From positions 1-20,112 of the IMG/VR virus record IMGVR_UViG_3300021131_000068: DNA of 20,112 bases; one strand, written 5' to 3'. The notes below the pieces were generated by a model. It was given only the letters and a program-made list of their open reading frames with translations. It did not search any database and was not told the DNA's origin. This document shows, piece after piece, positions 14,251-18,733 of the stretch. This stretch comes from a virus. The stretch's first letter is position 1. Each line of letters starts with the position of its first letter. The translations under genes and the position numbers were made by a program.

Positions 14251-15213
14251 CTATTTTTTGCGTCTTCCGTGAGGATGGTCAATCTTTGAACTGTTCCAGA
14301 TCTTGTCAAGATCCAAATGATCATAATCAGCGCCTTTGCGGCAATAGTTTTCAATCCATCTTATGAAGTCACAGCAAACATCCTCAACGTCATAAGGATT
14401 GCCTCCAGTGGCTTCACAGGCCATCATGGTGATGCGATCGAAGTCTGGTTTGTCAGCAAGATAGCTTAGACACTCCTTTGCATTGGTGCCATAGAAAAAC
14501 AAAGACTTTGGGTCAACAAGATCAGGATAGTGATCTGCGATGTCAGCTAGAAAAGCTGCATACTGAAACCAATAGACTCTGAGGTTGTTCTGCTTATTCC
14601 AATTTGCAAGGTCATCCATCCAACCTCTGAAAGTTTTTTGATGATATGGAAGTGACTTGATCAAACTTGGCAACATCTCACAAATGAAGTAGTCACCTCC
14701 TCGCTTATATCCATCAATAGGCTTAGGGAATGATGGAAACTGATAGCCAATTGACGTATACATAGGACCTTGATGCTCTTTGATCTTTTTGACCATGTCA
14801 TCAATGGTTCTGCAGTCATGAAGTTCAGGCAATACGGTGTTGTGATAACCTGATGGATTCTTTGCATAGTTGATTGCAGAACCTGTCAAGCGATGAACTG
14901 CAAACACGTAGAACCATGTTTCAGGTGACCAGTCTTGATGTCCAAACTTTTGACAGATAGGACGCCGAGTATCGTTCAGTTTGTGTGAGTACGGATGAGA
15001 TTCCTTTTCACCATGCATCAAGTCCCAAAGGATCTGTGAGAATCCTGCGTACTTTCTTTCAACCACGTCATAAAGATGCACGTGTTTCATAAGATCGTCA
15101 TCCACAGATGATTCTGCATGGGGTATGGTGCCAAGATTGCATTCTTCTTGTTGAGTTTTAGCCATATCGTAGTAACGTAAAAACTCATCAAAATAGATCG
15201 TAGGTTTTACCAT
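14251..15213 (-). CDS. Alpha-glutamyl/putrescinyl-thymine pyrophosphorylase-like DNA-modification protein
   Basis: This 320-residue helical protein contains ETWFYVFAVHRLTGSAINYA followed by KNPSGYHNTVLPEL. This segment resembles the 'HRLTGSG-N---GY-N' style core of the aGPT-PPlase families. These are helix-hairpin-helix, DNA-glycosylase-related proteins that replace the pyrophosphate on an activated hydroxymethyl base in phage DNA with an amino acid or amine. The C-terminal ACEATGGNPYDVEDVCCDFI helices fit such a fold. The start overlaps the stop of the PLP-like gene by 7 bases (ATGGTAA), tying it to the hypermodification operon. If the assignment is right, it acts on polymerised DNA and needs a base-kinase partner, which is not in this window. 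The call is from motif memory and context; a different all-helical DNA-binding family remains possible. Confidence 0.5.
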   Translation of the reverse strand: MVKPTIYFDEFLRYYDMAKTQQEECNLGTIPHAESSVDDDLMKHVHLYDVVERKYAGFSQILWDLMHGEKESHPYSHKLNDTRRPICQKFGHQDWSPETWFYVFAVHRLTGSAINYAKNPSGYHNTVLPELHDCRTIDDMVKKIKEHQGPMYTSIGYQFPSFPKPIDGYKRGGDYFICEMLPSLIKSLPYHQKTFRGWMDDLANWNKQNNLRVYWFQYAAFLADIADHYPDLVDPKSLFFYGTNAKECLSYLADKPDFDRITMMACEATGGNPYDVEDVCCDFIRWIENYCRKGADYDHLDLDKIWNSSKIDHPHGRRKK

Positions 15214-16088
15214 TGGAGTGGTCTCTCTAAGTCTGAATGGTCACCCCATTCACGTTGTGAATTGATATGACCAGGATATGGTTTCATGATGTTGGCATCA
15301 CACGACACATTGACAAACAATGCGCCAGGTTTATGCTCATCTCTAAACCGTTTCCATGCTTTAGCATCATAGTTAGATGTTGAAGGAAACGGAGGAAGAT
15401 CTTTAATAGGTCTTAAGAACGGAATTGAAGATGAGACAAGATCAGCTTTACCGATTTCACCAGGATGCATGTTCCTAGCTACAGCCACACCTTTGATTTC
15501 AGCGTAAGGCCATGCAATTTCAAATGCTCTGATTGCCGTTCCAGTTGACACACTCATCCATACCTGTGATGGATTCAATCGCATCCTCTGAGCGGTCAGG
15601 ATAAGACCTGCTGTGACCAAAGGACTTTTAGCTAAGCCAAATGGTAAGAACTTTGCACCATTTTGTTCTGCCCACTTTTCTGCATAGCTATTCAAGACCG
15701 GCATGGCTGCAATCTTGACAAACCGAAGCTCTACATTGGGATAGTTAAGAACTGACCTTTGATGTGGAGATGGGACTTTAGAAGCAGGACAAAAGAAAAC
15801 GCAACGTTTTCCATAAATCGAAGCTACTTTTGCAATGGCATCAGGGGCAGCTCCGGCTCTTGGAGCTACATAGACAACCGTATCTGCTCCAATAGATGCC
15901 ATCAAAGGTTCAGCGCCATACCCTTTAAGTGATGTCTGTGACAAATCACCTCTGAATATGGAGTAGTCATGGACATGTTTAACGATAGGATCTGCAAGTC
16001 TAGATTCAAAGCCATCTAGCATTTTGAGATAATCTTTAGCACTTAGAACGGCATCTCGGTTAGTTTGGTCTTTGGTGATCTCAAACAC
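15207..16088 (-). CDS. Fold-type-II PLP-dependent enzyme-like protein
   Basis: The preferred start is GTG at 16088. It has a GGAGG site 5 bases ahead and overlaps the upstream TGA; the frame continues to 16193 but would intrude on the SGNH-like gene. The 293-residue product fits the layout of the tryptophan-synthase-beta / ACC-deaminase superfamily. TSLKGYGA places Lys55 where the PLP lysine of the 'S-x-K-x-R-G-A' motif sits. VVYVAPRAGAAPDAIAKVAS followed by GKRCVFFCPAS parallels the 'SSGNHG--vA--A' strand-helix-strand. SVSTGTAIRAFEIA (residues 179-192) matches the Gly/Ser-rich phosphate loop. Known phage thymine-hypermodification pathways use a PLP enzyme to decarboxylate the attached amino acid, which would suit this neighbourhood. 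A phosphoribosyltransferase-like reading of APRAGAAPD is the main alternative. Confidence 0.5.
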   Translation of the reverse strand: MFEITKDQTNRDAVLSAKDYLKMLDGFESRLADPIVKHVHDYSIFRGDLSQTSLKGYGAEPLMASIGADTVVYVAPRAGAAPDAIAKVASIYGKRCVFFCPASKVPSPHQRSVLNYPNVELRFVKIAAMPVLNSYAEKWAEQNGAKFLPFGLAKSPLVTAGLILTAQRMRLNPSQVWMSVSTGTAIRAFEIAWPYAEIKGVAVARNMHPGEIGKADLVSSSIPFLRPIKDLPPFPSTSNYDAKAWKRFRDEHKPGALFVNVSCDANIMKPYPGHINSQREWGDHSDLERPLQW

Positions 16089-16935
16089 GCCAACCTCCAA
16101 CGCGTCTGTAATGAGTTGGTGCAATATGGACAGATGATCCAAGTTCCATATACTCATCAGCATAAGCTTTGCCATCCATGATGTAGCAAACATCAGGAAG
16201 TCGAACGTGAGTATAAGCTTTGAATAGAGAAGTCAAAGCTTGACGGTCTTGTCTTGATCCAAAGAAAGGTGTTCCTTTGTAATGGCCAGTTTTAGGAATT
16301 CTTCGTTCTTCATGTTCAATAGGAACAGGAGTTCCTAACTTGGCATCAGGATACCTTGATTGAAGTTCTTTGATCATCTCCATAGATGCTTCTCTTGGAT
16401 CAGGTTGACGCATCAGATGATGGCGGATGTCAATTGATCCTAAGACAATGAGATCAGCATCTTTAGGAATCTTGTTGTCTTTGAGTGCGCCATATAAAGT
16501 CTGACCATTGACTCGAATGATTCTAGACTTATAAGGTGCATAGGCCGTAGCATGACTATCGCCATACGTCAAATGCTTCAAAGGAAGTTCTTGCTGTGTA
16601 AGAGTAATAGCATTGGCAAGCTTTTCTTTAAGTCCTGGAATTTCAACTCCACGCTTTTTAAGCATGGCATCATAGTCAGGCATTGGAATGTCTAAAGAGT
16701 AAAGCTTATCAGGAGATGCAACAAGTTGCTTGAGATTGTCGATGATCTCACAAGTCACACCGCCAAATAGGTTAAGGGATCCACCAAAGTTAACGCCATG
16801 CTCAAGGTATAGATCTCCTGAATAGTTGCCTTCACGATGGATAGGCTGATCAATAGATTCTGACCAATGCAAAGCCCAACCTTTGACGTGCGACTTGTTG
16901 GATTTAGGAATAGGGGTAAAAGGATTTATTATCAT
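16081..16935 (-). CDS. SGNH/GDSL-hydrolase-like protein in the modification operon
   Basis: The start is taken as ATG 16935; a TTG at 16950 directly after the upstream stop is possible. The 284-residue product has ordered blocks like an SGNH hydrolase: YGDSHATAY with Ser127 in a GDSH block, Gly144, LGSIDIRHH (166-169, in place of G-x-N-D), and SSVHIAPTHY with His270 in place of D-x-x-H. Two canonical positions differ (Ile for Asn, Ser for Asp), so activity may be altered or the fold distant. The N-terminal 60 residues carry a conserved-looking LEHGVNFGGSLNLFGGV segment of unknown role. Some SGNH proteins move acyl groups. Within this operon it might add or remove a group on a modified base or its precursor; that is inference. 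The stop overlaps the PLP-like start. Confidence 0.45.
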   Translation of the reverse strand: MIINPFTPIPKSNKSHVKGWALHWSESIDQPIHREGNYSGDLYLEHGVNFGGSLNLFGGVTCEIIDNLKQLVASPDKLYSLDIPMPDYDAMLKKRGVEIPGLKEKLANAITLTQQELPLKHLTYGDSHATAYAPYKSRIIRVNGQTLYGALKDNKIPKDADLIVLGSIDIRHHLMRQPDPREASMEMIKELQSRYPDAKLGTPVPIEHEERRIPKTGHYKGTPFFGSRQDRQALTSLFKAYTHVRLPDVCYIMDGKAYADEYMELGSSVHIAPTHYRRVGGWRV

Positions 16936-16950
16936 TTGTAAATTGCTCAA

Positions 16951-17379
16951 TTAAAATTTTTGCCAAATCCGACCAGCAGAAACCCATAAGGATTCTGAAC
17001 CGTGAGGATATTCTTCTATAAAGATGATACGTTTGCAGCTTGTGTTAAGAAGAAGTTTGGTGCATGTAAAGCATGGACTTGCTGTCACATAAGCCGTATC
17101 AATAGACCAAACGTCATGACATTGAAGAAGCGCGTTTTGTTCAGCATGCAAAGCATTGCATCCATCTAAGTTTGTACCTGATGGAGCATCAGAACCTTGG
17201 CAAGGATTGTCAAGGCAATGAGGAAGTCCTGGGGCATTGCCATTATAGCCTGTAGCAATGACATGACCTTTCTGATTTAGAAAGACTGCTCCAACCTGTC
17301 GCCTTCTACATGTTGCACGTTTTGCAGTTAAAAGCGCAAGACCTAATGCCCATTCGTCTTTGCTCATCCTATCAGGCAT
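16951..17379 (-). CDS. dCMP deaminase
   Basis: This 142-residue protein has the zinc-dependent cytidine/deoxycytidylate deaminase signature: HAE at residues 78-80 (His zinc ligand, catalytic Glu) and PCFTC at 102-106 (two Cys ligands). Family features also include ATGYNGNAPGLPHC, the substrate-side loop of dCMP deaminases, and extra Cys/His residues (CLDNPCQGSD) suggesting a second zinc. It converts dCMP to dUMP, feeding thymidylate-type synthases. The ATG has an aggag site and overlaps the end of the synthase gene by 16 bases, so both products are probably made together. It could also act on 5-substituted dCMP, linking a dCMP-specific hydroxymethylase to a uracil-type modification. Family assignment is secure. 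Confidence 0.9.
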   Translation of the reverse strand: MPDRMSKDEWALGLALLTAKRATCRRRQVGAVFLNQKGHVIATGYNGNAPGLPHCLDNPCQGSDAPSGTNLDGCNALHAEQNALLQCHDVWSIDTAYVTASPCFTCTKLLLNTSCKRIIFIEEYPHGSESLWVSAGRIWQKF

Positions 17380-18116
17380 TGAATGTCTCCTGTTTGACGA
17401 ACAATGTCAAGCGATGCCATAAGATGAGTGAAAGAGTCAAACTCTTTGATCTTTGGAGATTTTGCAAGAGGCATCTCAAGGACTTCATGTGCAGCTTCAA
17501 AGTTATTCTCATAGACATGCATGGATGTTGCTGTCAAATGCAAAGATCCAAGCTTGTACTTCTTATCCAACCACAAACGAACAGCGTTAGTGATCATCGA
17601 GAAGTTGAACACGTCGTAAGGACGTCCAAGCCATAAGTCATTAGATCTCATGGTTGTATGACAATGGATAGCATCATTTCTGATGAAGAACGTCATTGCA
17701 ATCGTGCAAGGATAATCCTTAGTTTCAGGAGGATTTTCTCTCCAAATGGTCAATGTCGCTTGCCGTGTATTTGGATCTCTATTGAGCTTTTCAATGACGT
17801 ATTTAAGTTGACCTATGACTTTAGGGCCATAAGCTCCAAAGAATGTTTCTCCGTCATCAGAAAAGTTTTTGATAATCTGCATGTAAGGTGCAATGCCATC
17901 TACGCGGTTGTCACCTGACAAGATCCAATAACACTCCGCAGCCATGAACTTGTAATTGATAGCTCTAATTGGATTGACAAGGATCGGGTAGTTCATGTCA
18001 ATCTTAGAAGTTTCAGCCACAAGTTCTAAAGTATTTTTGCTTCTAGGTGAGATGCGTTGACCGAAATGCAACACATCTTTAAGGTTAAAACACCATTCCT
18101 GATCAATTGTGTTCAT
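17364..18116 (-). CDS. Thymidylate synthase family protein, probable dCMP (hydroxy)methylase
   Basis: From ATG 18116 (a TTG lies one codon upstream) the product is 250 residues. Family landmarks are in order: ECYWILSGDN (Glu61, Trp64), a YGPKVIGQL segment, DPNTRQATLTIW, the catalytic Cys137 in DYPCTIAM, then MRSNDLWLGRPYDVFNF and TATSMHVYEN (His200, Tyr202). The position of the dUMP-selecting Asn in thymidylate synthases (the 'P-F-N-I-A' Asn, E. coli Asn177) is Asp168 here. T4 dCMP hydroxymethylase has Asp at this site too, within a similar M-R-S-N-D context. Asp there is the accepted dCMP-specificity change. The C-terminus lacks the usual 'HP-I-M--AV' end of thymidylate synthases. So a dCMP hydroxymethylase or methylase is more likely than a true thymidylate synthase, though a dUMP hydroxymethylase cannot be excluded. 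The stop lies within the deaminase start region. Confidence 0.8.
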   Translation of the reverse strand: MNTIDQEWCFNLKDVLHFGQRISPRSKNTLELVAETSKIDMNYPILVNPIRAINYKFMAAECYWILSGDNRVDGIAPYMQIIKNFSDDGETFFGAYGPKVIGQLKYVIEKLNRDPNTRQATLTIWRENPPETKDYPCTIAMTFFIRNDAIHCHTTMRSNDLWLGRPYDVFNFSMITNAVRLWLDKKYKLGSLHLTATSMHVYENNFEAAHEVLEMPLAKSPKIKEFDSFTHLMASLDIVRQTGDIQCLIG

Positions 18117-18366
18117 CAATATGTCTCACTACTAGTTGAGCATAACCTGCAATGTCAACCCAAGAATCTGCATAATCGGCATCTCCATTGACAATCCTTG
18201 CAAGCTTATGGACGATCATGTGCATGGCTTCTTTGTGATAATACTTAAGAGCTATGGCATTGTCACCAGCCATAAGGACATCAAGACAATCTTGAACAGT
18301 ACGGGCATTGCCATCGAATGTGCCATAACGATTGCCACGTTCATCGAGGACTTTATCAATACTCAT
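18103..18366 (-). CDS. DUF6378-like phage protein
   Basis: From ATG 18366 (ggag site 6 bases ahead; the TTG at 18378 is less likely) the product is 87 residues. The C-terminal half HKLARIVNGDADYADSWVDI followed by AGYAQLV is the recognisable signature of a small all-helical family often listed as DUF6378. It is common beside phage nucleotide-metabolism genes and has the look of MazG-type helical proteins. The N-terminus carries ERGNRYGTFDGNA. It overlaps the MazG-like gene upstream and the synthase gene downstream. A role in nucleotide-pool control is plausible from context only. Confidence 0.65.
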   Translation of the reverse strand: MSIDKVLDERGNRYGTFDGNARTVQDCLDVLMAGDNAIALKYYHKEAMHMIVHKLARIVNGDADYADSWVDIAGYAQLVVRHIDEHN

Positions 18367-18733
18367 ATCCAGCTCCAATTAAAATCTTACGAGTCTTAGG
18401 ACCTTCCCAACCTTCAGGCTTAACTAAGTCTTCAGCATGACCACGCTTAGTCATTCCACGTTCTTTAGCCATGTTAGCACGATGAACGTCATCCCAAAGT
18501 TCATACCAAGGAATTCCCATCATTGCGGCAGTACCTAGTGCAAAATAGACAAGATCGATGAGAGCATCTGCTTGATGATCAATAGACTGACAGTCAATTC
18601 CATCAGCAAATTCGTCAAGTTCTTCTTGCATACAAACAAGGCGCTCATTCAGCTTTTTCTTTTCTAAAAGAGTTGGTTTGTCTGCAACTGCAAAACCAAA
18701 CTTCTTATGCATTTCAATGACGTCGTTAATCAT
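18356..18733 (-). CDS. MazG/PRA-PH-like nucleotide pyrophosphohydrolase
   Basis: This 125-residue protein has the all-alpha NTP pyrophosphatase core: CMQEELDEF (Glu37, Glu38, Glu41), then DALIDLVYFALGTA (Asp56, Asp60) forming the E-E-x-x-E ... D/E-x-x-x-D metal site. A DVHRANMAKERGM segment and a C-terminal KPEGWEGPKT follow, typical of phage members. These enzymes hydrolyse nucleoside triphosphates to monophosphates and pyrophosphate. In a base-modification operon such an enzyme can remove the unmodified competitor dNTP and supply dCMP to the neighbouring synthase and deaminase, as T4 dCTPase does. The ATG overlaps the stop of the small HTH gene. Substrate is not predictable from sequence. 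Confidence 0.7.
   Translation of the reverse strand: MINDVIEMHKKFGFAVADKPTLLEKKKLNERLVCMQEELDEFADGIDCQSIDHQADALIDLVYFALGTAAMMGIPWYELWDDVHRANMAKERGMTKRGHAEDLVKPEGWEGPKTRKILIGAGYEY

Follow-up and report, generated by a model that had tools for sequence, protein, structure and literature searches.

The viral record IMGVR_UViG_3300021131_000068 of IMG/VR, analysed here over its full length of 20,112 bases (the window), carries plus-strand structural genes in its left half and minus-strand replication and nucleotide genes in its right half. The subject of this work is a seven-gene minus-strand run at positions 14251-18733, whose five downstream genes (P1 to P5) had been put forward in a preliminary description as one unit for the hypermodification of DNA bases. 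The genes of the run are the following:

14251..15213, minus strand: P1, 320 aa, amino-acid:DNA-transferase-like protein with a helix-hairpin-helix (HhH) glycosylase fold, as suggested by its AlphaFold model and by PDB and BFVD structure matches
15207..16193 (likely start TTG 16100), minus strand: P2, pyridoxal 5'-phosphate (PLP) fold-type-II-like enzyme similar to M6 gp52 (phrog_7093, E 4e-43)
16081..16950 (likely start ATG 16935), minus strand: P3, SGNH/GDSL-fold protein (phrog_13881, E 2e-49, and structural model)
16951..17379, minus strand: P4, deoxycytidine monophosphate (dCMP) deaminase (PF00383, E 5e-21; phrog_174, E 8e-40)
17364..18119, minus strand: P5, thymidylate synthase (TS) family protein of dCMP type, predicted dCMP hydroxymethylase (PF00303, E 7e-24)
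18103..18378, minus strand: P6, DUF6378 protein (PF19905, E 2e-8), overlapping P5 by 17 nt
18356..18733, minus strand: P7, MazG-like PRA-PH nucleotide pyrophosphohydrolase (PF01503, E 9e-15)

All five proposed open reading frames (ORFs) are present, and many viral contigs retain the same set, in agreement with their treatment as a single unit; a chance gene cluster was rejected on the basis of this synteny. Neighbors in the run overlap by 7-23 nt, and the sole gap, of 15 nt, separates the deaminase from the SGNH gene. With the likely starts, the spacing is -16 nt for P5/P4, +15 nt for P4/P3 (adjacent without overlap, presuming that P3 starts at ATG 16935), -20 nt for P3/P2 and -7 nt for P2/P1, so that the earlier statement that all five genes overlap applies to the other pairs and not to P4/P3. 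The P2 ORF as listed, ending at 16193, overlaps the SGNH ORF by 113 nt; the homologues of P2 begin later, the closest in-frame start is TTG 16100, and the true start of P2 probably lies near 16100 rather than at 16193.

When viral contigs were searched with P1 and P2, five were returned in which the SGNH, PLP, P1, TS and deaminase genes occur together, and in four of these the TS is only 24-26% identical to that of the window. Profile searches recovered P1 in at least 189 contigs and the SGNH family in at least 562, the best 80 of each being examined; the SGNH set was obtained with an alignment query, as a single-sequence query of the viral contigs was unsuccessful. To count partner genes we used only the contigs recovered with the SGNH query, because these had not been picked for having P1; 25 non-redundant loci among them had 3.5 kb or more of flank on each side. 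Within 5 kb of the SGNH gene, P1 was found in 25/25 loci, PLP in 23, TS in 21, the deaminase in 21 and a second family adjoining P1, termed C0, in 9. Adjacent module genes overlap or lie no more than 20 nt apart in 209 of 267 pairs (median gap -4 nt), with gene content kept between contigs and gene order variable. The conserved content and tight spacing therefore provide strong evidence of one shared function. The reverse association is looser, with SGNH near P1 in 17 and PLP in 15 of 27 P1-query loci, and many of the P1-query loci without SGNH or PLP nearby carry P1 with C0. A P7-type gene, possibly acting on deoxynucleoside triphosphate (dNTP) pools, lies near the module in 13 of the 25 SGNH-query loci, and the P6-type gene occurs in 15 loci, duplicates included.

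P1 and C0 have no match among 50,697 phage records, and the complete module was not found in any cultured phage genome searched. The cultured Stenotrophomonas phage AXL3 (L204:6475-9675) carries a TS 47% identical to that of the window together with a MazG-like gene and a dCMP deaminase, and no annotated SGNH-PLP-P1 triad nearby; this locus is a possible simpler relative of the module. At two contig ends (L007:2-1788 and L015:1-1346) the PLP, TS and dCMP deaminase genes are adjacent, with SGNH and P1 outside the view. At a further locus (L078:5977-6861, record G010) the PLP gene next to P1 passes one TAG and one TAA codon, and may be broken or read in another code.

The best match in a PDB search with the P5 family profile was the T4 dCMP hydroxymethylase (1b49, E 4e-64). 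The catalytic Cys138 of P5 is present in 40/40 aligned TSs, and the residue that follows it is Thr, the same as in T4. The position of E. coli Asn177 sets the preference for deoxyuridine monophosphate (dUMP) or dCMP, and the MetaGPA study (PMC8670742) linked Asp at this position to contigs with modified cytosine. Enzymes acting on dUMP have Asn here, and in P5 the position is occupied by Asp169. Asp is found in 38 of the 40 aligned TSs, equal to 38 of the 39 module contigs sampled, and the two non-Asp sequences are M6 gp58, which served as the control for the dUMP type, and an additional, canonical TS of one contig (L095). Among the site controls, T4 gp42 has Asp, and the SPO1 dUMP hydroxymethylase and M6 have Asn. 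P5 is predicted to be a dCMP-type synthase, as the preliminary description had proposed, and we infer hydroxymethylation rather than methylation. ThyX lies near a P5-type TS in 10/104 loci, where thymidine monophosphate (dTMP) synthesis therefore need not be the role of the TS; an ordinary TS identity for P5 was rejected on the grounds of Asp177 and this co-occurrence.

Profile searches, which had been advised for the five proteins, placed the synthase and the deaminase in Pfam and the SGNH and PLP proteins in PHROGs only, and left the 320-aa protein unmatched. The P1 family (45 members) has no meaningful sequence match in Pfam, PHROGs, NCBIfam or PDB sequences, and none in cultured phages. 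Its AlphaFold model (predicted local distance difference test, pLDDT, 92.5; predicted template modeling score, pTM, 0.90) has its best PDB structure match in 8z2n (Z 10.2, 202 residues aligned, root-mean-square deviation 3.9). This entry is gp46/PUGT, the 5-phosphomethyl-deoxyuridine glycinyltransferase encoded by phage PaMx11, for whose structure a literature search yielded no paper. Archaeal AGOG and other HhH DNA glycosylases follow among the PDB matches, and the first matches among the viral models of BFVD include proteins named amino acid:DNA transferase (ADDT), aGPT-PPlase1 and HMUDK_hel. The model shows a PUGT/ADDT-type HhH-glycosylase-like fold belonging to the aGPT-PPlase/ADDT structural superfamily, and P1 probably works like an amino-acid:DNA transferase, though outside the Pfam ADDT and HMUDK_hel families. 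The earlier naming of P1 as aGPT-PPlase-like is thus upheld at the level of structure, where a DNA glycinyltransferase is closest. This assignment rests on structure and genomic context, since sequence and profile comparisons were negative or weak; single-sequence hhalign comparisons of P1 with M6 gp51, M6 gp55 and the C-terminal part of a phage 31 protein discussed below were negative. Invariant P1 residues include H107, R108, K164, D224, N244, D259, E277, D278, C281 and R285, and a suggestive motif, E-x3-C-x-[FW], is seemingly common to P1 (E277, C281), C0 and several ADDT/HMUDK_hel members in alignments read by eye.

The C0 family (333 aa; L087:6756-7760 and 84 other loci) shows a remote similarity to P1 (hhalign E 8e-5, probability 61%); searches of Pfam, PHROGs and the PDB gave no match to it, and those of cultured phages no relative. 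Close to P1-C0 pairs with neither SGNH nor PLP in the vicinity, a HhH-GPD DNA glycosylase-like gene was observed (L068:7128-7970 and 35 other loci).

The PLP-like character ascribed to P2 agrees with its placement in phrog_7093, which also contains M6 gp52, a PALP (fold II) domain protein. In a direct hhalign comparison with M6 gp52 the probability was 94% (E 1e-7), Lys90 of P2 is invariant (21/21), and a weak PDB match was obtained to threonine dehydratase 8y1j (E 0.006). As judged from these sequence comparisons, P2 belongs to the M6 gp52 family of PLP enzymes, with PLP binding and decarboxylation as its predicted activities. In the thymidine pathway, PLP enzymes trim amino acids once these are attached to DNA. 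P2-related PLP domains were also seen in Erythrobacter phage ZS04 (L021:2326-4764), where an 812-aa protein fuses such a domain to an N6/N4 DNA methylase match, and in a Microcystis phage, where the domain lies beside ParB-like genes; these contexts suggest a role in DNA modification.

The SGNH-like nature proposed for P3 is matched by the fold of its model (pLDDT 92.2), which was needed for the assignment because a PDB sequence search with P3 gave no match. The SGNH fold occupies residues 118-289, and the top PDB structure matches are nearly all SGNH esterases, acetylhydrolases and thioesterases (best Z 8.7, residues 124-289), with the SGNH acyltransferase SsfX3 at rank 46. The block I GDSH motif and the block V His275 are invariant in 42/42 sequences.

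The P3 family is found in cultured Aeromonas, Stenotrophomonas and Tenacibaculum phages, and the Aeromonas homologues (ORF233c of phages 31 and 44RR, and that of phage 25) show 25-30% identity. ORF233c of phage 31 has 795 aa; P3 is homologous to its N-terminal half, and its C-terminal part gives a sub-threshold match to HMUDK_hel (E 0.0036). Phage 31 also encodes gp42, with Asp at the diagnostic site, and gp56. A 2010 survey reported that Aeromonas phages 44RR, 31 and 25 have genes 42 and 56 and no glucosyltransferases, and left open how such phages shield their 5-hydroxymethylcytosine (hmC) (PMC2993671). A P2-type PLP gene was not found in phage 31, phage 25 or Stenotrophomonas phage IME13 by a search run without a positive control. 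The SGNH gene is part of a fusion in phage 31 and stands alone near a UDP-galactopyranose mutase gene in phage 25 and IME13, so that P3 may take part in decorations of more than one type. Directly upstream of the SGNH fusion of phage 31 lies a sodium:solute symporter (L023:4402-5925; PF00474, E 7e-53), which is unusual in a phage and might import a modification substrate.

Five observations underlie the functional assignment of the cluster: its genes are conserved as a unit, P5 has the dCMP-type residue, the folds have been recognized, residues of catalytic type are invariant, and the known kinase was not found. With regard to the last point, the window indeed holds no base kinase, as had been noted; this absence is weak evidence because the record is a 20 kb fragment, and larger relatives were searched instead. 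In 40 related records of 26-306 kb, which may be fragments, the 5-hydroxymethyldeoxyuridine (5-hmdU) DNA kinase HMUDK (PF18748) had no match above its cut-off and one weak match (E 0.001); M6 gp54 served as the positive control (E 8e-18). A simple miss is less likely since records of 80-306 kb were included.

Taken together, we consider it fairly probable that the cluster is a phage system for hypermodification of hmC. The small nucleophile that P1 would attach to this base is probably an amino acid; P2 would modify the attached group, and P3 would contribute an acyl-type reaction. In such a pathway, P7 and the deaminase P4 would reshape dNTP pools and P5 would make 5-hydroxymethyl-dCMP from dCMP, to be built into phage DNA. 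P1 would then flip out the hydroxymethylated base and couple it to the nucleophile, for which an amino acid is the likeliest candidate, and the PLP enzyme P2 could remodel this amino acid, for example by decarboxylation. P3, with its Ser-His SGNH site, may perform an acyl-type step, either activation of the hydroxymethyl group in place of a kinase or trimming or acylation of the product. The remodeling by P2 and the acyl-type step of P3 are the least certain parts. The suggestion of an undescribed hypermodification, possibly on cytosine, gains support from the dCMP-type TS, the folds, the PHROG relation and the kinase search; we infer the chemistry, including which base is finally formed, which amino acid is used and what the SGNH protein does. 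A more far-reaching proposal, which we hold only tentatively, is that amino-acid-derived hypermodification of hmC is widespread, that SGNH replaces activation by kinase and pyrophosphate, that the system as a whole is so far not known from cultured phages, and that the same SGNH family may explain the DNA modification in Aeromonas phages 31, 44RR and 25.

Several observations weigh against hypermodification of hmC by an amino acid. A Z score of about 10 for an all-helical model speaks for fold and not for function, as helical models score high generally. The Pfam ADDT cut-off (PF18724) was reached by none of the 45 P1 members listed, with 0/30 records at E<=1, and the HMUDK_hel cut-off (PF18723) by 0/45 members and 0/40 records; the positive controls gave E 1e-46 (M6 gp51) and E 8e-56 (M6 gp55), respectively. 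Small family profiles of P1 against ADDT and HMUDK_hel were weak (E 0.007-0.012). Known amino-acid:DNA transferases work on uracil, following kinase activation. The usual block III Asn (GxND) is absent from P3, which has G171-S-I-D174 instead with Asp174 invariant. P1 and C0 occur without SGNH, PLP or TS in view in 16/104 non-redundant loci, and among larger records of this group some hold SGNH and PLP elsewhere and others still lack them. A stand-alone SGNH gene lies near a UDP-galactopyranose mutase gene in Aeromonas phage 25 and Stenotrophomonas phage IME13, a neighborhood that suits a sugar route as well. Finally, Asp177 cannot tell a dCMP hydroxymethylase from a dCMP methylase.

Among the alternatives, the one that survives best, although we regard it as unlikely, is a thymine/uracil version, in which the synthase or a later deamination gives 5-hydroxymethyl-dUMP and P1 to P3 build an M6-like hypermodified thymidine. 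The shared PHROG of P2 and M6 gp52, the resemblance of P1 to the uracil enzyme PUGT and the dCMP deaminase of the cluster, which could in principle deaminate hydroxymethyl-dCMP, all fit this version, but the Asp in 38/39 sampled module TSs, the T4-like Thr beside the catalytic Cys and the best profile match to T4 gp42 do not, given that M6 and SPO1 have Asn at the site; neither does the failure to find the 5-hmdU kinase in the 40 related records.

Ranking next, as an improbable reading, is an hmC that bears a non-amino-acid group, with P3 acylating hmC or helping to glycosylate it and P1 and P2 making or delivering another small molecule. SGNH folds include acyltransferases such as SsfX3, and in phage 25 (L211:270-2451) and IME13 (L203:2264-4446) the UDP-galactopyranose mutase and a 358-aa protein of unknown family directly precede the SGNH gene, hinting at a galactofuranose-type decoration. 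P1 and P2, however, have their nearest folds and PHROG relatives in amino-acid-based pathways, P1 accompanies SGNH in every one of the 25 loci, and no sugar-nucleotide gene is common to most of the module loci. The absence of any hypermodification, with the synthase making 5-methyl-dCMP or canonical dTMP and P1 to P3 acting in DNA repair or unrelated metabolism, would accommodate the glycosylases as second-best P1 folds, the HhH-GPD gene near some P1-C0 loci and the ambiguity of Asp177, yet it is very improbable in view of the tight coupling of the SGNH-PLP-P1 triad to a dCMP-type TS and a dCMP deaminase, the ThyX beside this TS in 10 loci and the rank of PUGT above the repair glycosylases.

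Hypermodification of hmC by the module can be compared with several known systems. Thymidine hypermodification in M6 and PaMx11 (also Salmonella ViI and Delftia PhiW-14) has in common with it a TS-family synthase and proteins of aGPT-PPlase/ADDT fold, and M6 also the PLP enzyme. It differs in that the M6 synthase is of dUMP type (Asn), whereas the module has a dCMP-type synthase, a P1 outside the Pfam families and an SGNH protein; the HMUDK kinase was not found in module relatives, and the radical S-adenosylmethionine (rSAM) gene of M6 was not seen in the unit. The synthesis of hmC in T4 (gp42, deaminase, gp56) likewise involves a dCMP-type TS, a dCMP deaminase and a nucleotide pyrophosphohydrolase, but no counterpart of the T4-type glucosyl- and arabinosyltransferases recurs in the module, which has PLP and ADDT-like proteins instead. 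Compared with the M6 pathway, the module would act on another base, with another mode of activation and another set of enzymes; compared with T4, it has no glycosyltransferase that recurs.

The MetaGPA 5-carbamoyloxymethylcytosine system shares with the module an Asp177 TS, PRA-PH and dCMP deaminase in modified-cytosine phage contigs; it uses a carbamoyltransferase, whereas the module has SGNH, PLP and ADDT-like proteins, and the terms aGPT, PLP and SGNH are all absent from the main text of that study (PMC8670742). The CmoA/CmoX/CmoY carboxymethylcytosine system attaches glycine to a derivative of cytosine in phage DNA (PMC12783734), and an amino acid on cytosine is likewise proposed here; that system employs a carboxymethyl handle and an amide ligase, the module a predicted TS-made hydroxymethyl handle and an ADDT-like protein. 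Aeromonas phages 31/44RR and 25 combine the same SGNH family with gp42 and gp56, and differ in the P2-type PLP gene not found in 31 and 25 (by the search noted above), in the fusion of the phage 31 SGNH protein to a part weakly matching HMUDK_hel and in the UDP-galactopyranose mutase near that of phage 25. Among the papers searched, none combined phage, DNA modification, SGNH and thymidylate synthase.

Modified bases usually shield phage DNA against host nucleases, and new ones are useful to DNA chemistry. If the proposed pathway is true, amino-acid hypermodification on a hydroxymethyl handle would extend beyond thymine, with a large reservoir in uncultured phages. Aeromonas phages 31, 44RR and 25, which have a dCMP hydroxymethylase and no known glucosyltransferase, carry a homologue of the SGNH gene. 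This makes the idea testable in cultured phages, and the SGNH gene is a concrete candidate there for the question of how such phages protect hmC (PMC2993671).

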